Source of the DNA: Alienimonas chondri
Lineage (GTDB): Bacteria > Planctomycetota > Planctomycetia > Planctomycetales > Planctomycetaceae
NCBI RefSeq assembly: GCF_013036045.1
Contig: NZ_WTPX01000003.1
Span: 1-64,000, forward strand
Length of the DNA stretch: 64,000 nucleotides
Direction: 5' to 3'
The stretch's first letter is position 1, and each line of letters begins with the position of its first letter. The notes beneath the pieces are model-generated. The model was given only the letters and a program-made list of their open reading frames with translations, did not search any database and was not told the origin of the DNA. This document shows, one piece after another, positions 2 through 17,300 of the stretch. The position numbers and the translations under genes were made by a program.

Positions 2-2116
2 CCCGAAACCACGGATCGCACCTTCGCGGAAGACACGGTCCCCTCCGCACCGGGCGGCGAGACGCATCAAACAGCGGGCGAGGGACACGAAACGTTGACC
101 ACGGCCCAGGGCGTCGCGGTCGCGGACGATCAGAACTCCCTGAAAGTCGGCGGCCCCCGCGGGCCGGTGGCTTTGGAGGACTTTCAGCTCCGCGAGAAGA
201 TCTTCCACTTCGATCATGAACGGATCCCCGAGCGCGTCGTGCACGCCCGCGGCTACGGCGCCCGGGGTTACTTCGAGAACTACAAGCCGCTGACGGATCT
301 CACCGCGGCGGACCCGTTCAGCGAAGCGGGGCTGAAGACGCCGGTGTTCACGCGGTTCTCCACCGTCGCGGGCAATAAGGGCAGCGCCGACCTCGCCCGA
401 GACGTCCGCGGCTTTGCGGTGAAGTTTTATACCCGTGCGGGGAACTGGGATCTCGTGGGGAACAACATCCCCGTGTTCTTTATTCAGGACGCGGTGAAGT
501 TCCCGGACCTGATTCACTCCGCCAAGCCGGAGCCGGACCGGGCCTTCCCGCAGGCTCAAACCGCCCACGACAACTTCTGGGACTTTATGTCCCTGATGCC
601 GGAAGCGACCCACATGGCGATGTGGATCATGTCCGACCGGGCGATCCCGCGTTCCTTCCGCTTTATGGAGGGCTTCGGCGTGCACACCTTCCGCCTGGTG
701 AACGCGAAGGGGAAATCGACCTTCGTGAAGTTCCATTGGAAGCCGAAGCAGGGACTGCAATCGGTGGTGTGGAACGAGGCGTTGAAGATCAACGGCGCCG
801 ACCCGGATTTCCACCGCCGCGACCTCTGGGGAGCGATCGAAGCGGGCGACGAAAGCGGCGACTACCCCGAATGGGAACTCGGCCTGCAAACCTTCTCCGA
901 AGAGGACGCCGACCGTTGGATCAAGGAGTACGGCTTCGACGTGCTGGACGCCACGAAGCTGATCCCGGAGGAACTGGTTCCGGTGAAGCCCGTCGGCAAG
1001 ATGGTCTTGAACGAGCGCGTCGATAATTTCTTCGCCGAGACGGAACAGGTCGCCTTCTGCACGCAGAACGTCGTGCCGGGGATCGACTTCACGAACGATC
1101 CGCTGTTGCAGGGCCGGAACTTCAGCTACCTCGATACGCAGACGAAGCGTTTGGGCGGGCCGAACTTCACCCATATCCCCGTGAACGCCCCGAAGTGCCC
1201 GTTCCACCACTTCCAACAGGACGGGCATATGGCGATGCACAACCCCGTCGGCCGGGCGAACTACGAACCGAATAGCTGGGGGCCGGAGCACAACCCGAAA
1301 GAAAACCCGGAGACCGGTTATCAATCCCTCCCGGTCGAGGAGAGCGGCCCCAAGGTCCGCGTCCGCAGCGAGACCTTCGCCGACCATTACAGTCAGGCCC
1401 GGCAGTTCTATATCAGCCAGACGCCCGAGGAGCAGACGCACATCGCCGACGCCTTTACCTTTGAGCTGAGCAAGGTGCAGACGCCGGCGATTCGCAAGCG
1501 GATGGTCTCCCATCTGTTGAACGTCGACGCGGATCTCGCCCGGACCGTCGGCGAACAATTGCGGCTGGAGGAGATGCCCGCCCCCGCCGACGCCGCGAAG
1601 CCGACCCGGCAGGATCTCAAGCCGTCGGACGCGCTCAGTATTATCAAGAACGGCCCGGCCAGCTTTAAAGGTCGGAAGGTCGGGGCGCTGGTGACCGACG
1701 GCGTCGACGCCGACTTGCTGGCCGGCCTGATGAAGGCCTGCAAAGCGGAGGGCGCGATGCTGGAGTTGATCGCCCCGCACGTCGGCGGCGTGACGGACAG
1801 CGCCGGCAAACACCACGACGCCGACGAGAAAATCGACGGCGGTCCCTCCGTCCTCTACGACGCCGTCGCCCTGCTGCCGTCGGCGGACGGGGCGGTGGAA
1901 CTGAAAACGATGCCGCCCGCCCGCGACTTCGTCGCGGACGCCTTCGCCCACAAGAAGTTCATCGCCCACGTCAAAGCCGCCACGCCCCTGTTGGGCAAAG
2001 CCGGCGTGGTGCCGGACGATCTCGACGGCGGCTGCGTCGAATTGAAGTCGGCGTCCGACTGCGACGCCTTTGTCAAACAGTGCCGCGCCCTGCGGTTCTG
2101 GGATCGGAAAGCGTGA
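2..2116 (+). CDS. katE: Large-subunit catalase (HPII/KatE type), 5' end outside window
   Basis: Heme catalase that converts hydrogen peroxide to water and oxygen in the cytoplasm. Visible hallmarks are the distal-heme segment around [11 protein letters not shown], the [10 protein letters not shown] segment with the active-site Asn, and the proximal heme Tyr in [10 protein letters not shown]. The last 150 or so residues (from about [12 protein letters not shown]) form the extra flavodoxin/DJ-1-like domain that marks the HPII class over small-subunit catalases. The first possible start inside the window is a TTG at 95, but the frame is open back to base 2 and encodes a polar stretch ending ETLTT, which resembles the N-terminal extension of HPII enzymes. 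The real start is therefore probably to the left of the window and this entry is partial. The gene reads away from the window edge with no visible operon partner. Confidence 0.95.

Positions 2117-6198: not shown

Positions 6199-6223
<25 letters not shown>
5363..6223 (+). CDS. Neutral zinc metallopeptidase (YpfJ/KPN_02809 family)
   Basis: A 286-residue, membrane-anchored predicted metallopeptidase. It starts MQWRGRRESSNVEDRRG, the usual N-terminus of this family, then has one transmembrane segment (GIGTLLIIGLFWLLGG, about residues 35-50). The DVW..QF...Y..P.....FTG block follows, with CG.A....GPFYCP typical of the family. The zinc site is HEVGHH in VVAHEVGHHVQNLLG, followed by RLELQADFLAGVWA, which supplies a downstream acidic ligand. 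The ATG at 5363 is chosen because the family N-terminus begins there; the frame is open further upstream but without homology. The physiological substrate is unknown. It stands alone, with the tRNA-Leu gene next downstream. Confidence 0.9.
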
Positions 6224-7701
<1,478 letters not shown>

Positions 7702-7704
7702 GGG

Positions 7705-7944
7705 TCAGGCTCCAGTCGTGGTGGAGGGATCGCAGGTGGCCGGCACGGCCTGTCGACACTTCGCCGCCTGCACATATCGGTCGAGGTCGCGGGGGTCGTA
7801 CCGCACCCAGCGGCCGTCCCGCAGAACGGGAATCGGCCCCTTGGGGGCGGTCAGATCGAGCAGCTTCCGCTCGGAGATGGTCAACCACCCGGCGGCCTGC
7901 CGGCGGGTGAGAAGTGCGGCGGTCGGAGTCATAACGGGCGGCAT
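7705..7944 (-). CDS. Excisionase-like HTH protein
   Basis: A 79-residue protein with one MerR/excisionase-type winged HTH: LLTRRQAAGWLTISERKLLDL, then a wing with PVLRDGRWVRYDPRDLDRYV. This HTH_17 pattern is standard for small excisionases and directionality factors. It lies 3 bp upstream of the integrase on the same strand, so the two are almost certainly co-transcribed. It probably binds near an att site to bias the integrase toward excision, and may also regulate the integrase. An internal ATG at 7932 (MTPTAALL) is an equally possible start. Confidence 0.82.
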   Translation of the reverse strand: MPPVMTPTAALLTRRQAAGWLTISERKLLDLTAPKGPIPVLRDGRWVRYDPRDLDRYVQAAKCRQAVPATCDPSTTTGA

Positions 7945-7992
7945 GGGCTTCGGGGGGAGAGGTTAGCGCGACCGGGGGGCCGGCGCGAGGGG

Positions 7993-9303
7993 TCAGGCGG
8001 CAGGCAGGCCGCGCTTCCGGCGATGCTTTTCCATCAGCTTTCGTACGCCGGCATCCTTCTGTCCGAGCTTCGCGGCGTTCGCGGAGATGAACGCCAGCAG
8101 TTCGGGAACGGTGCCGACCGGTGCCCCACAGTCCACGGCGATCCCGGCGGCGTAGCTCATCATCGTTTGGGCGGCTTTCTCCGGCCGAATCAGGGAGCGG
8201 TCTACCGGCTTCACCGAGGCGAAGGCGGTGCGTTCGTCCCAGCCACCGAAGGTGTCCTGCACGAGCCGCCAGAAGTCGGACGGCGCCGCTCTCGACTGGT
8301 GCCCGTTGGCCTTGTCTGGCACCCCATCCGTCAGCATGAAGAAGGTTCTGCCGTCATCACCGCCGCTGATCTTGCGGGCGATGTTCGGCAGGTTGTCGAG
8401 AACGTCGAGGGCCGTGCGGTAGCCGTGATCGGCCAGCCACGCCCCCATCAGCCGATACTCGACCCGGACCGCCGGGCCGAGGTCTTCCAAGTCCGTAAGT
8501 TCGTGCTCATGCCAGCGGTCCCGCAGCATGCATTGGCGATAGCCGTAGGACTTGGACGACAGCTCCCGCAGCTTGTCATAAATCGTCAGCAGCAGCCGCT
8601 TGCCGCTCCCCACCTTCAGCCCGGTCGGGGCGTTCCCTTCCGTAAACCGCACATGCTTCTTCGCGGAACTGACGAACCGGCCCGCGTCGTAGGGGACCAG
8701 CACGTCGCGGTGCATGTCGCGGCAGTAGAAATCGCCGCAGAGGTCCACCCGCTTCACCCACTCGTCCACCACCTCGCCGCCGAGCTTCTCGATGACGTGG
8801 TTCTGCACCGAGAGAGCAGACCGCAGACCGTAGACGACGCAGGCATCCCCGGTGATCCGGCGACGAAAGTTATAAAGCGTTCGATCGGTCGACGGACGCG
8901 GGTCGAGGTGCAGGACGATCGAGTCCCCGCCCGGTCCGGTTTCCAGCCGCAGTTCGCAGTGCGAATCCCTGCCGCTCCCGGCCCCCCGCCCGTGGACATG
9001 CCAGGTCGCGCCGGGTTCGGCGATCGTTTGCGGCGTTCGCTTCTCCCGAGCAACGGCCCGCAGCGCCCGATATTGCTCCCAGCCTACCGGCAGCGCTTTG
9101 GGCCAGCGAATTACGCCGCCGGTCTCCCACCAGTCGACGGCTCGGTGTGGGTTGGGGTCCCGGTCGAGGCGGCGGCGGGCATCCCGCATCGCGTCGCGTT
9201 CAGTGTTCCGCGGTGATGATTGGCGGTTAGAAGGTCCCGTGATACTGGGGCACGGGGGCTGCTCGAAGGCGGAGGAGCGGCGGTCGTTATTGGCGGTGGT
9301 CAT
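7993..9303 (-). CDS. Rep_trans-like replication initiation protein
   Basis: A 436-residue protein resembling the Rep_trans replication-initiation-factor family used by rolling-circle plasmids and integrative elements. Visible landmarks are VKRVDLCGDFYCRD (about 183-196), the GSGKRLLLTIYDK block (about 232-244) and AVRVEYRL (about 278-285), in the order and spacing of that family. Such proteins nick a double-strand origin with a Tyr to start replication; which Tyr is catalytic here is not clear. The first 38 residues look unstructured, so the Met at residue 39 is a possible alternative start. It precedes the excisionase and integrase genes on the same strand. The hairpin at 9380-9438, upstream of its start, is a candidate origin. 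Confidence 0.68.
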   Translation of the reverse strand: MTTANNDRRSSAFEQPPCPSITGPSNRQSSPRNTERDAMRDARRRLDRDPNPHRAVDWWETGGVIRWPKALPVGWEQYRALRAVAREKRTPQTIAEPGATWHVHGRGAGSGRDSHCELRLETGPGGDSIVLHLDPRPSTDRTLYNFRRRITGDACVVYGLRSALSVQNHVIEKLGGEVVDEWVKRVDLCGDFYCRDMHRDVLVPYDAGRFVSSAKKHVRFTEGNAPTGLKVGSGKRLLLTIYDKLRELSSKSYGYRQCMLRDRWHEHELTDLEDLGPAVRVEYRLMGAWLADHGYRTALDVLDNLPNIARKISGGDDGRTFFMLTDGVPDKANGHQSRAAPSDFWRLVQDTFGGWDERTAFASVKPVDRSLIRPEKAAQTMMSYAAGIAVDCGAPVGTVPELLAFISANAAKLGQKDAGVRKLMEKHRRKRGLPAA

Positions 9304-9379
9304 CAGATCCCGTCCGTGGGAGGTGAAGAAACGAAAAGTAAAGTTACCGATCTGCCGTCCTGAGCGTCGCCAGTCGATC

Positions 9380-9438
9380 CGGCGGCGGGCGGGCGTCGCT
9401 CCGCCGAGGCGGAGCGTCGCGCCGCCCGCCCGCCGCCG
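9380..9438. other. Long GC-rich hairpin upstream of rep (candidate origin or terminator)
   Basis: A 16-bp outer stem (9380-9395 with 9423-9438) and a 9-bp inner stem (9397-9405 with 9408-9416) separated by a small asymmetric bulge. It lies between the end of the HTH gene at 9486 and the rep start at 9303. It may be the nick-site hairpin for Rep, or a terminator and attenuator controlling rep expression. Confidence 0.55.
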
Positions 9439-9485
9439 ATCCGCCAGCTACGCCACGGATCGCCCCCTCGAAGATTCGTTCCGTT

Positions 9486-9887
9486 CTACTCCAGACTTCG
9501 GGCGATGAGGATGTCCCGCCATGCGTCGCATTCAGTGCGTGGGACGTACGAAAACTCTCTCCGCGTGCGGGTGCGTTCTCCGCCCAAGGCGCCGCGGACG
9601 GTGTCCTGCAACTCGTAGAGCAGCACCGTGAGGCCGCCCCGTTTGACCCGCTTGTGCACGGACGGACGGGAGACGCCGACGTACTCGGCGACCCACTCGT
9701 AGGGGACCAGTTCCCCGCCGAAGTCTTCGTGCACTTCGCGGAACCAGGTCGCCAACGTCGCTTCGCCCCCGCTGTCCCGGTAGACGCGGGTGCCGGGGTC
9801 GATGTGGACGGCCTGATTCTTCCCCTGCGGGATAAGGCAGCGTGCGGCATAGTCGGCGAGGCGGGGGTCCGGAGAGATGTCGGGCAC
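9486..9887 (-). CDS. HTH protein of the integrative element
   Basis: A 133-residue protein with a GTG start (reads VPDISPDPRLADYAARC). The central segment LVPYEWVAEYVGVSRPSVHKRVKRGGLTVLLYEL looks like a helix-turn-helix with a short wing, similar to the DNA-binding proteins that accompany Rep in small planctomycete elements. It is possibly a copy-number or lysogeny-type regulator. It lies between two large hairpins (9380-9438 and 10037-10111), which suggests an independent transcription unit. No family name can be given with confidence. Confidence 0.62.
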   Translation of the reverse strand: MPDISPDPRLADYAARCLIPQGKNQAVHIDPGTRVYRDSGGEATLATWFREVHEDFGGELVPYEWVAEYVGVSRPSVHKRVKRGGLTVLLYELQDTVRGALGGERTRTRREFSYVPRTECDAWRDILIARSLE

Positions 9888-10036
9888 GGATTCGTTGCAC
9901 GGCTGGGTTGTACTCGCTCGCCGGCGAGAGGGAACCCCAACATGCTACGAAATGTTGCCCGGCGCCGTCGCGTGCGTCGCGACGTGCCGGCCGGACCTGC
10001 CGGACATCGGCTCGGGCTCGACAAGAGGGGACCGCC

Positions 10037-10111
10037 GCCCCTCCCGCCTTCGCCGTCGCGTCACCCCTGCATCGGGCGAAGGGCTGACGCGACGGCGAAG
10101 GCGGGAGGGGC
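10037..10111. other. Perfect 27-bp inverted repeat in the element
   Basis: The arms 10037-10063 and 10085-10111 are exact reverse complements, separated by 21 nt. The repeat lies just downstream of the cargo gene (stop at 10124) and upstream of the HTH gene. It is far longer than other terminators in the window, so besides termination it may be a replication (single-strand or double-strand) origin or a dimer-resolution site. Confidence 0.7.
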
Positions 10112-10123
10112 TATCTGAGTCGA

Positions 10124-11452
10124 TCAGAAGCCCAGTCGACTCTTTAAATAGTCTTTCAGGAGGTCGACTGATGCCTTGCCCACTACTCCAGCCGAACTGA
10201 GCAGGAACGTTTTCAGCTTCCGTTCAGCCGGCTTCTTATCTCCGGCAGGTAAGGCCGCATCTTCAAGTTCCCGCAGCGACACCAACAACGCCTCTCTCTC
10301 CTTACCCCCCTGTCGGGCGATTAACTGTCGGAACTGCTGTCCGGCTTCGGCGATGCCCGCTTCCCCAGAGAGCTCATCATAGATGATTTCTCTTGCTCGC
10401 TCGTTGCTGACCATCGGTGCCGACCTCAACGGCATACTGCGAACACCACTGCCGATAGACGTCAGTTTTTCGAGATCACCCACGAAAGGCTGCCTGAAAG
10501 CATCGTCCACAAGCATCTCAATTTCCCGTCCGTCGGGAGTCTGTTCCTCCGCGAGCTCTTGCTCGAGCCGATGCCGGATTGCAAGTAAACGACGTTCTCT
10601 CTCTTGTTGCATGTCTAACCGAAGCCTCCGAACCTCTCTGCCATATTTTTCCACGAGGCGGCTTGCCTTTGCAGAATTGACGCTTGCCAAAGCCAACACC
10701 TCCGCCGCCTTTTCCGGCGCCGCCTCACTCAGGCTTGCCAGATCGCTAAAGTTCCTGTAGTGCGACTCGACATCTACTGCCTCTTCCAGTTCAGCGCGAA
10801 CTTCGTAGAAGCTGCCACTTGGCGTCTGCTTGACTTCCAACTTCGCTGAGACACCCGCCACGCTCGAGAGGTAGTCGCAGAACAAGCGGATTACGCGGTC
10901 GGTCTCCTCGGCATACAGCTGTGCCTTAGGGACGTACGTACGGAAGAGCAGTTTACTGTCACTTTCCCTTAAGAAATCTGTCGTAAGGACGGTTACTTCA
11001 GCGTTTTTTCGGTAGGTGACGAGTTCCATCCCTCGCAAGTAGAACAAGGGGTGCACCAGATCTCGCACTTCCGGCGTTATTCTCGCATAGAGGTCCGCCC
11101 AATCATCATCTGGGTCAGCGGTCTCCCCGCAGCTGAACAAATCTTCGTGCACGACCACAAGGTTCGGCACGCTGGATATGAGATCCAGCAGTCGTTTTGC
11201 GACATCTTCGTACTCAGGATGGCAGAAGTTGAAGTAGGCATCGAGAGAGAGCCGCATCGAGACGGCAGTCACTTCGTGGGAGTCAAACAGATCGACGATC
11301 GACGCCCAGTTCGCCGGCCCTGATTTCAGTCGCTTCTTCTTGTACGGTTTTCCGGCCTGCTTGAGAAAGTCGACAATGCCCGCGTCACCCATCATCGGCT
11401 CTAAGAGAAGCACCAGCCCGCCTCCCTCTATCGATTCCTCTCCTTGAGACAT
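10124..11452 (-). CDS. Unrecognised cargo protein of the integrative element
   Basis: A 442-residue protein that I do not recognise. Residues 10-30 (GGLVLLLEPMMGDAGIVDFL) and 95-105 (PNLVVVHEDLF) look like beta-strand and helix elements of a globular N-terminal domain. Residues 150-225 look mixed alpha/beta. Residues 255-305 are strongly charged and probably form a coiled coil (EVRRLRLDMQQERERRLLAIRHR), followed by a helical C-terminal part ending LLKDYLKSRLGF. There is no signal peptide or transmembrane segment, so it should be cytosolic. The gene is visibly AT-richer than its neighbours, a sign of recent transfer. As the only cargo of a small mobile element, next to the attachment site, an anti-phage or other fitness role is plausible, but nothing in the sequence proves it. 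Confidence 0.8.
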   Translation of the reverse strand: MSQGEESIEGGGLVLLLEPMMGDAGIVDFLKQAGKPYKKKRLKSGPANWASIVDLFDSHEVTAVSMRLSLDAYFNFCHPEYEDVAKRLLDLISSVPNLVVVHEDLFSCGETADPDDDWADLYARITPEVRDLVHPLFYLRGMELVTYRKNAEVTVLTTDFLRESDSKLLFRTYVPKAQLYAEETDRVIRLFCDYLSSVAGVSAKLEVKQTPSGSFYEVRAELEEAVDVESHYRNFSDLASLSEAAPEKAAEVLALASVNSAKASRLVEKYGREVRRLRLDMQQERERRLLAIRHRLEQELAEEQTPDGREIEMLVDDAFRQPFVGDLEKLTSIGSGVRSMPLRSAPMVSNERAREIIYDELSGEAGIAEAGQQFRQLIARQGGKEREALLVSLRELEDAALPAGDKKPAERKLKTFLLSSAGVVGKASVDLLKDYLKSRLGF

Positions 11453-11533
11453 CGTAACCTACCGCGAGATAACGTTTTGGAGTGAAGGAACATGGCCGGC
11501 CCTTCCGTTCAGCACGCTTGGGCCTATCGCAGG

Positions 11534-11730
11534 TTATCCGGCTTCGGAGGCCCCGCCTACTCCGCCGTTCCGGCCAATCATGTCATCGAAAGCCATCCGA
11601 CATTGATGACAGAGCGCACGATAGCTGGCGAGTAGCTGCCTCATACTGGGGGACGGTGCACCGGATTCTGCACCGCCTACCGTAGCACGCGGCGCGGATT
11701 CGCAGCATCCGCAGCCTTCCCCGTTCTCGC
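11534..11730 (-). other. Alternative integrase tail, in frame only in the circular element
   Basis: Reading leftward from the att copy at 11731-11750 in the integrase frame gives 65 codons to a TAA at 11534. This includes a GGAESGA motif that also occurs in the integrase just before the left att core. On excision and circularisation this stretch would replace host-encoded residues 427-500 of the integrase, giving a 491-residue protein. In the integrated state it is cut off from the integrase. Confidence 0.6.
11657..11677. repeat. Candidate integrase arm sites, distal side
   Basis: Repeats the block at 6557-6577 with 19 of 21 positions identical and in the same orientation: two TGCACCG heptamers 13 bp apart. 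It lies 53 bp inside the distal att copy. Confidence 0.5.
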
Positions 11731-11750
11731 TTCGAATCCCGTCCCGGCCA
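11731..11750 (+). repeat. Attachment core, distal copy
   Basis: An exact 20-bp copy of the tRNA-Leu 3' end at 6423-6442, same orientation. Bases upstream differ from the tRNA, so this is a tRNA fragment brought by the element and not a second gene. Confidence 0.92.
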
Positions 11751-12096
11751 CTGTTTTTGTCGCGTCGTCTGCGGGGGCAGGAGAGTCCGCTGCGGATGGC
11801 CGTTGGTTGCGTCGCGGTCCTCGACAGTGCCGGCGATTCGCTCAGGGAGGCCGTTGCGACGACTGCGGCCTTGGGGGCGGGATCGGCTTGGCAGAGGAGC
11901 TCCGCATCGTCTGGGTCGGGCTGTGACGAACACGGGTTCTGCGGCCGGACGAATCGGTCAGCAGACGGGCAAAACATGCGCGGGGGTTGACGGCGTCGAG
12001 CGAAGCGACGTTGCCGCCCGGCGGCTCCCGGCGTGCAGATCCGGTACAACGCGGCGGAACGGCGGCTTTCCTCCTCGCTTTCAATCACCGAACTCC
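11751..12096. other. Intergenic region before the sialic-acid cluster, no gene seen
   Basis: 346 bases of host DNA that followed the tRNA before integration. It begins CTGTTTTTG, a possible tRNA terminator, and must contain the promoter for the sialic-acid genes. No convincing ORF, hairpin or operator was found. Confidence 0.4.
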
Positions 12097-15705: not shown

Positions 15706-17300
15706 CTGTTCCGCTCGCCCAATCCGCCGACGCTCAATCCGCCGAGGTGTCGTTCGGACTGACGAACTGGCTGGTGCTGATCGCCTATCTCGCGGGGATG
15801 GTTTGGATCGGCGTGCGGTGTTCGCGCACGGAGTCCGGGACGGAGGACTTTTTCCTCGCCGGGCGCCGTATTCCCTGGTGGGCGGCGGGGCTGTCGATCT
15901 TCGGCACGCAGCTCTCGGCGATCACCTTTATGGCGATCCCCGCGACCGCCTACGGGGACGACTGGGTGCGGATGACGTTGAACCTGATGCTGCTCGCCGC
16001 GTTGCCGGTGGTGGCGCTGTTCTATCTGCCGTTCTATCGCCGCACGGGCGTGGCGACGGCCTACGAGTACCTCGAACGCCGGTTTAATCTCGCCGTTCGC
16101 TGGCTGGCAAGCGGGCTGTTCATCCTGTTGCAGATCGGTCGGATGGGCGTCGTGTTGTATCTGCCGGCGATCGCGCTGGCGGCGGTGACGGGGATGAACG
16201 TTTACGTCTGTCTGGCGCTGATGGGCGTGCTGGCGACGATTTATACCGTGTTGGGCGGCATCGAAGCGGTGATCTGGACGGACGTCGTGCAGGTGGTCGT
16301 GCTGATCGGCGGCGTGCTGATCTCATTGGCGGTGATTACCAGCCGGGTCGGGGGCGTGGGGGAATTAATCGAGGCGGCCGGCGCCGCGGACAAGTTTCAG
16401 ATCGTCGAGACGATCCCCGCCGACCCGCCGACTCCCACACCCGCGGAGGAGGCCGATGGCCGGATCGACGTCCCGCCGTGGCTGAGCGGCAACGCCTTCT
16501 GGATCATGGTCGTCGGCGGGTTCGTGATGGCGCTCACGCCCTACACCACCGACCAGACCGTCGTGCAGCGGTACCTGACGACGCCGAACGAAGCGGCGGC
16601 GGTGCGCAGCGTGTGGTTGAACTTCTGGATGACGGCGCCGACCGCGTTGCTCTTCTTCGGCTTCGGGACGGCGTTGTTCGTGTTCTACGAGACGTTCCCC
16701 GGCCTGCCGCTGCCGGAGACGGCGGATGAGATCGTGCCGTGGTTCGTGGTGTCGCAACTGCCCGCGGGGGTCGCGGGGCTGGTGATCGCGGGGGTGTTCG
16801 CCGCGGCGATGTCCTCGCTGGACAGCAGCATGAACAGCGTCGCGACGGCGATCGTCAACGACTTCCACGTCCGCCTGCGGCCGAAGACGACCGACAAGGC
16901 CCGCCTGCGATTGGCCCGCCTCCTCACCGTCGTGCTGGGGGCGCTGGGTACGGGCGTCGCGGCGGTGCTGGCGAGCGTGGAGATCAAATATCTGCTCGAC
17001 TTCTTCATGACGATGCTGGGCCTGTTCGGCGGCGGCCTCGGCGGGCTGTTCGCTCTGGCCGTGTTCACCACGCGGACTAATGCGACCGGCGCCCTCGTCG
17101 GTTTGATCGTCGGCACCGTCATCACCGCGGGCGTCCAATTCGCCACGGAGGTGAACGGGTTTCTCTATGCGGCGATCGGGTTCATGATCTGCCTCGTGAT
17201 CGGCTACGGGGTGAGCCTGCTGACGAAGGGCGACGCCCGCGACCTCGCCGGCCTGACCATTCACACGACGGACCTCCGCGGACGCCCGGCGGCCGGTTGA
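15702..17300 (+). CDS. Sodium:solute symporter (SSS), probable sialic-acid transporter
   Basis: A 532-residue SSS-family permease with about 13 hydrophobic segments. Family marks are the N-terminal GTEDFFLAGRRIPWWAAGLSIFGTQLSAITFMAIPA, the GGIEAVIWTDVVQ region of TM6, and the AAAMSSLDSSMNSVATA sodium-site helix. It would import the sugar released by the secreted sialidase, and SSS-type sialic acid transporters are known in other bacteria. Substrate is inferred from position between NanM and AGE. The GTG start at 15702 overlaps the previous stop (GTGA), and its own stop overlaps the TTG of the next gene, so the three are translationally coupled. Confidence 0.87.
   Translation: MTVPLAQSADAQSAEVSFGLTNWLVLIAYLAGMVWIGVRCSRTESGTEDFFLAGRRIPWWAAGLSIFGTQLSAITFMAIPATAYGDDWVRMTLNLMLLAALPVVALFYLPFYRRTGVATAYEYLERRFNLAVRWLASGLFILLQIGRMGVVLYLPAIALAAVTGMNVYVCLALMGVLATIYTVLGGIEAVIWTDVVQVVVLIGGVLISLAVITSRVGGVGELIEAAGAADKFQIVETIPADPPTPTPAEEADGRIDVPPWLSGNAFWIMVVGGFVMALTPYTTDQTVVQRYLTTPNEAAAVRSVWLNFWMTAPTALLFFGFGTALFVFYETFPGLPLPETADEIVPWFVVSQLPAGVAGLVIAGVFAAAMSSLDSSMNSVATAIVNDFHVRLRPKTTDKARLRLARLLTVVLGALGTGVAAVLASVEIKYLLDFFMTMLGLFGGGLGGLFALAVFTTRTNATGALVGLIVGTVITAGVQFATEVNGFLYAAIGFMICLVIGYGVSLLTKGDARDLAGLTIHTTDLRGRPAAG

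Follow-up and report, generated by a model that had tools for sequence, protein, structure and literature searches.

What is a 442-residue protein of no nameable family doing in a small tRNA-borne element of Alienimonas chondri, and might it serve in defence against phages? A sequence-only reading of the window (the whole stretch of 64,000 nucleotides analysed here) had proposed the gene as the only cargo of a mobile element, lower in GC than its surroundings and lying at the end farther from the integrase. The open reading frame was found as described, with its ATG start and length matching, and we consider it a true gene rather than a chance opening since six homologues span its full length, at 30-33% identity, and the longest frame in 300 shuffles of the region did not exceed 273 residues. 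Its composition does set it apart, with a GC content of 0.551 against 0.669 for the remainder of the window, and the gene is foreign even to its own vehicle: its GC3 is 0.63, compared with 0.82-0.86 for the integrase, replication-initiator-like (Rep) and helix-turn-helix (HTH) genes of the same element. These three genes resemble the host in this respect, and the cargo is therefore probably newer than the element that carries it. Its placement at the integrase-distal end was also borne out. Whether it is the only cargo depends upon the small HTH gene, the description being correct if that gene is taken as core and incorrect otherwise. A sigma-70 scan, which is uninformative for a planctomycete, found no promoter.

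The vehicle (positions 6446-11753, 5.3 kb; Table 1) is an integrative mobile element at a tRNA gene. It is bounded by an att repeat, encodes its own tyrosine integrase and has an unoccupied counterpart in a genome of the same genus (L027 6567-6664), where tRNA-Leu(TAA) is continuous and the element absent. The best agreement between att-sized repeats among 300 shuffles was 17/23, against 22/23 for the real pair. At the unoccupied site the left flank aligns at 74.5% and the right flank for just 7 bases past att, so the insertion is documented mainly on one side. The integrase, Rep, HTH and cargo genes all lie on the minus strand between the att repeats, with the cargo as the sole non-core gene. 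The integrase domain match stops at about residue 358-364 (near 6610) and the rest of the frame spans attL and the tRNA, so the protein would have a different C-terminus once the element is excised; this final part (6199-6600) runs through attL and then antisense through the tRNA, and the frames of related integrases at other loci likewise read through att and tRNA. The inverted repeat next to the cargo, which within the source genome occurs only in this element and its sister, is a candidate origin or core cis site. Rfam matches to mir-3937 and mir-1181 on this palindrome fell below threshold and were rejected as an artefact of the near-perfect hairpin. A 698-residue open frame (7120-9216, plus strand) lies antisense to the integrase and Rep genes, with a similar frame of 803 residues in the sister element, and is probably a by-product of high GC.

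Table 1. Features of the tRNA-Leu(TAA) element (window positions) and predicted modules of the cargo protein (residue numbers).
Feature	Position	Strand	Evidence or remark
tRNA-Leu(TAA), integration target	6358..6442	+	ARAGORN, Rfam
attL, 23-nt repeat at tRNA 3' end	6423..6445	.	repeat; orthologous unoccupied tRNA site in same-genus genome
Tyrosine integrase	6199..7701	-	PF13102 E 1.8e-6, PF00589 E 1.9e-6, phrog_1 E 8.9e-31
Subterminal 28-nt repeat	6550..6577	.	86% to partner 11651-11678; possible arm-type integrase site
Replication-initiator-like protein (Rep)	7993..9303	-	weak PF05144 (Phage_CRI) E 0.024; 77.5% identity to sister Rep
Small HTH protein, excisionase/regulator-like	9486..9887	-	weak HTH matches only
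32-nt near-perfect inverted repeat	10037..10111	.	between HTH gene and cargo; common only to the two sister elements
Cargo gene, 442 aa, ATG start	10124..11452	-	ORF call; end-to-end homologues
Subterminal repeat	11651..11678	.	partner of 6550-6577
attR, 22/23 identical to attL	11731..11753	.	next 7 bases match unoccupied site
Rossmann-like N-domain	residues ~10-165		predicted model
Beta-alpha-beta-beta module	residues ~168-220		predicted model
Long conserved helix/coil	residues 260-300		predicted model; helices precede it
Linker before C-terminal helices			weakly predicted
C-terminal helical domain	residues 351-440		predicted model

Whether the gene serves the element itself can be judged from a sister element on another contig of the same genome (C354, L026 5131-9597), which lies in tRNA-Leu(GAG) with its attR 4.4 kb away. 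Its integrase is 60% and its Rep 77.5% identical to those of the window element, and it has the same inverted repeat and a similar subterminal repeat pair close to both ends. No homologue of the cargo is present in it; in place of the cargo and HTH genes it has a frame encoding a YTGPGGG-repeat protein (about 8868-9398, minus strand) and a ribbon-helix-helix-like gene. Other planctomycetes also have related integrases at tRNA genes, with differing contents. Given that the sister lacks the gene and that related tRNA integrases travel with other contents, the 442-residue gene is best regarded as variable cargo and not as an element function. A core role in replicating, partitioning or excising the element could be imagined from its location inside the element and beside the common palindrome. 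We regard this as highly improbable, and as largely refuted by an element that keeps so similar a Rep without the gene; homologues on integrons, phages and bare chromosomes, and a composition unlike that of int and rep, also speak against it. The vehicle as a whole resembles the small tRNA-integrated Rep elements of the IME or satellite-like kind in its tRNA target, tyrosine integrase, Rep-like protein, small HTH gene and single cargo slot, but belongs to a planctomycete family and has no recognisable capsid-hijacking or mobilisation genes. Tandem related integrases were seen in planctomycete genomes 3' of tRNA-Gln (L028 6280-8802) and of tRNA-Asn (L034 604-4720, in the source's own genome), which suggests stacked elements.

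The cargo protein is a member of a rare and undescribed family. Scans of the window protein against Pfam, NCBIfam, PADLOC and PHROGs gave sub-threshold matches only, as did Pfam and PADLOC scans of five members, and these (MZB, E 0.21; DUF763; Shg1) were rejected. PADLOC 2.0.0 found no defence family for any of the five at E values up to 5, and nothing credible was recovered from the PDB by sequence or profile. Seven members are known, including the window protein, with pairwise identities of 29-84%: four in genomes, namely a Brocadia metagenome-assembled genome (MAG; L012), Vibrio sp. S17_S38 (L013), a Thermoflexus-labelled MAG of the Chloroflexota (L014) and the planctomycete MAG RI_361 (L015), and two in IMG/VR contigs (L039/L042 and L040/L041). 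The family is very rare and patchy across phyla. A single-protein query matched 2 of 391 other Planctomycetota, and no members besides the seeds turned up in samples from the Vibrio phylum (398 genomes), the L014 phylum (301) or the Vibrio order (296), these samples partly overlapping and the first pass of the searches being liable to miss distant members. The plasmid and phage records searched held no match to the family. Three weak genome matches (E 0.005-0.006; L004-L006) were dropped as they overlap long frames of other families, and a search with the C-terminal helices alone gave one match in IF-2 and one short stretch, both discarded.

Homologues confined to conserved chromosomal contexts had been named at the outset as evidence against a defence role. 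Those recovered lie elsewhere: one is in an integron array, one in the cos-proximal slot of a P2-like phage and one in a second phage-like contig, and the others are isolated insertions. The Vibrio homologue is an integron cassette, with attC-like sites on both sides and same-strand neighbours. Seven genes run on one strand from a GNAT gene toward gdhA, and the intervals hold attC-like sites that start with TAACAA and end with CGTTA, most of which fold as hairpins better than shuffles do. For the sites around the homologue the folding z is -0.6 upstream and -3.4 downstream, the upstream one being an exception to the hairpin rule that was recognised through its 70% identity over 61 nt to another site of the array. 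The same genome has a split integron-integrase-like gene on a different contig, below the family cut-off. The copies in L012 and L014 may well be of cassette origin too. Their DNA is 82.6% identical over a stretch that opens 26 nt ahead of the start codon and closes 20 nt past the stop, and only there, an isolated unit of about 1.4 kb in unrelated surroundings, and the similarity ends in attC-core-like GTTAGGC/GTTAAGC and GCCTAAT/GCCTAAC. Both genomes have integron integrases above the NCBIfam cut-off, which none of 14 controls has. No complete attC was recognised at either locus by a home-made scanner that missed even the Vibrio sites, so that its negatives mean nothing.

Among the phage-like contigs, the homologue in L041 (1954-3396) adjoins the portal, terminase, scaffold and capsid genes of a P2-like phage, with the portal separating it from the remaining head genes. 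Peduoviridae phages of Pseudomonas have portals 69% identical to this one, and in these relatives the corresponding slot holds different small genes. Between gpA and the portal gene, P2-like phages of E. coli have a hotspot in which old, tin and further tested defence systems are found (Rousset et al. 2022, PMC9122126). The L041 gene is likewise an accessory gene by the portal of a Peduoviridae-type phage, but neither sequence nor profile comparison links its family to a known system, and the contig begins 2 kb left of the homologue, showing the slot from the portal side only. In L042 the homologue is surrounded by phage-like helicase, exonuclease and primase genes, and a 327-bp copy of a helicase segment (8465-8791 and 9592-9918, 84% identical) ends 79 nt before it. 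The chromosomal copy in L015 starts 48 nt after a fumarylacetoacetase-like gene, the last 266 bp of which (9680-9943) recur 6.5 kb downstream (16213-16478) at 90.6% identity; the 6.5-kb stretch between the duplicated ends begins with the homologue, as would be expected after insertion through one-sided homology. No partner gene common to the loci was found across the contexts read, and the gene therefore probably acts alone. No known defence gene was recognised beside a family member in any locus read. Several apparently independent insertions without a common partner point to a self-sufficient and often transferred gene, and its mobility between distant bacteria by unrelated kinds of mobile DNA is well supported.

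We therefore read the gene as self-contained accessory cargo, mobile as a single-gene unit and recently captured by a small tRNA-integrating, Rep-encoding element, with phage defence as its most likely role, a reading in which our confidence is about evenly balanced and whose defence part we infer from location. Defence leads because screens have found many single-gene defences in vehicles of two of these kinds (PMC9122126; PMC12409362), with about 10% of V. cholerae integron cassettes being anti-phage (PMC12409362); the family's rarity and patchiness also count in its favour. Such a function would protect the host and hence the vehicle too. Like the reported anti-phage cassettes (Darracq et al. 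2025, reviewed in PMC12409362), the Vibrio homologue is a single gene between attC-like sites; its comparison with those systems went through PADLOC 2.0.0 only, and it is a candidate by location. Against defence we count that genes of other kinds also travel in integrons and phage accessory slots, and seven known members are too few for a statistical test of defence-island enrichment. Defence thus stands as a well-motivated guess, the odds of which are raised by location.

The same contexts could suit other roles. The gene may be a non-defence fitness or stress gene, such as a regulator or metabolite binder, carried as ordinary integron or mobile cargo: the roles of most integron cassettes are not demonstrably defensive (PMC12409362), and the predicted Rossmann-like domain could bind a metabolite. 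Conflict genes are a better fit to its extreme rarity, cross-phylum patchiness and occurrence in phage genomes, and we think this explanation unlikely, if still one to be taken seriously. Less probable again is a factor for conflict between elements, by counter-defence or superinfection exclusion, which would aid phages and elements rather than the cell generally. Two of the seven members do lie in phage-like contigs, one of them in the accessory slot beside the P2-like portal, but members in an integron array or alone on a chromosome would be unexpected for pure counter-defence, and the size and multidomain make-up of the family are, as a matter of general knowledge, unlike those of small anti-defence proteins. 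A selfish toxin-like or addiction gene lacking a recognised antitoxin would account for single-gene spread and for a C-terminal helical module; with no second small gene alongside it across the loci and no match to a toxin family, we consider this very unlikely.

If defence is the role, the predicted architecture offers some indication of how it might be exercised. AlphaFold2 modelling of the whole protein with five sequences gave a mean pLDDT of 68.7, the N-terminal third scoring better; a second model, of the part from residue 162 in the Brocadia homologue, used seven sequences and reached a pLDDT of 80.2 and a pTM of 0.73. The sequence-only reading had described a globular N-terminal part, a coil at about 255-305 and a helical tail; all three are seen in the models, but the description was incomplete, as Rossmann-like and beta-alpha-beta-beta modules are predicted in addition. 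The most conserved stretch lies in the long helix (Y270, E273, R276, D280, E284, E286, L290, I292 and E297). In the family alignment the N-domain has 18 invariant residues, including Y37, K38, K40, S44, P46, N48 and W49 of an invariant face, G..YKxKxLxSxPxNW. No Asp, Glu, His or Cys is invariant in residues 1-165, which argues against a classical enzyme there. Mechanistically, the conserved coil may join subunits into an oligomer, and the N-terminal domain may use its invariant face to bind a ligand or a trigger that derives from the phage. The signal would then be relayed to the cell by the middle alpha/beta domain and the C-terminal helical one, most likely with growth arrest or a block of phage development as the outcome. 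These sensor and effector roles are speculative and are proposed from the anatomy of the models only.

The structure prediction that had been proposed as a check yielded no housekeeping or element-maintenance match and no discriminating fold, and the structure searches found no known sensor, effector or defence fold. The N-terminal part is modelled as a flavodoxin/Rossmann-like alpha/beta fold, which VIA aligns to a plant TIR (Z 9.5, rmsd 4.0, 126 aligned) and to a receiver (Z 8.3, rmsd 3.9, 115 aligned). Unrelated hydrolases and dehydrogenases score equally, however, and with designed folds also tying no fold was assigned from the Foldseek and VIA results. The catalytic Glu of TIR NADases and the phospho-acceptor Asp of response-regulator receivers are not conserved in the cargo family. 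A match of the C-terminal helices to the YicC C-terminus (Z 6.5, rmsd 3.9, 78 aligned) was within noise for helical bundles. The cargo module at 168-220 was compared with TRADD-N (PMC8195603), which has an RRM-like fold with a Ser in the beta2-beta3 turn: the module is predicted as beta-alpha-beta-beta only, its invariant turn residues are T210 and G213 rather than Ser, and it has no Pfam match.

We tentatively entertain a larger claim, which we hold less firmly than the defence role itself, that this is a new single-protein immune family with an undescribed combination of folds (a Rossmann-like sensor without catalytic acids, a beta-alpha-beta-beta module, an oligomerising coil and a helical output) that integrons, P2-like phages and tRNA elements have carried between phyla. 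None of the defence and domain libraries searched contains the family, although its single gene was found in at least three unrelated vehicles and in no fewer than three phyla. Should it prove defensive, it would be a one-gene system with no recognisable fold, overlooked by present profile-based detection, and its copies in Vibrio and the P2-like phage represent laboratory-tractable homologues for a direct test.
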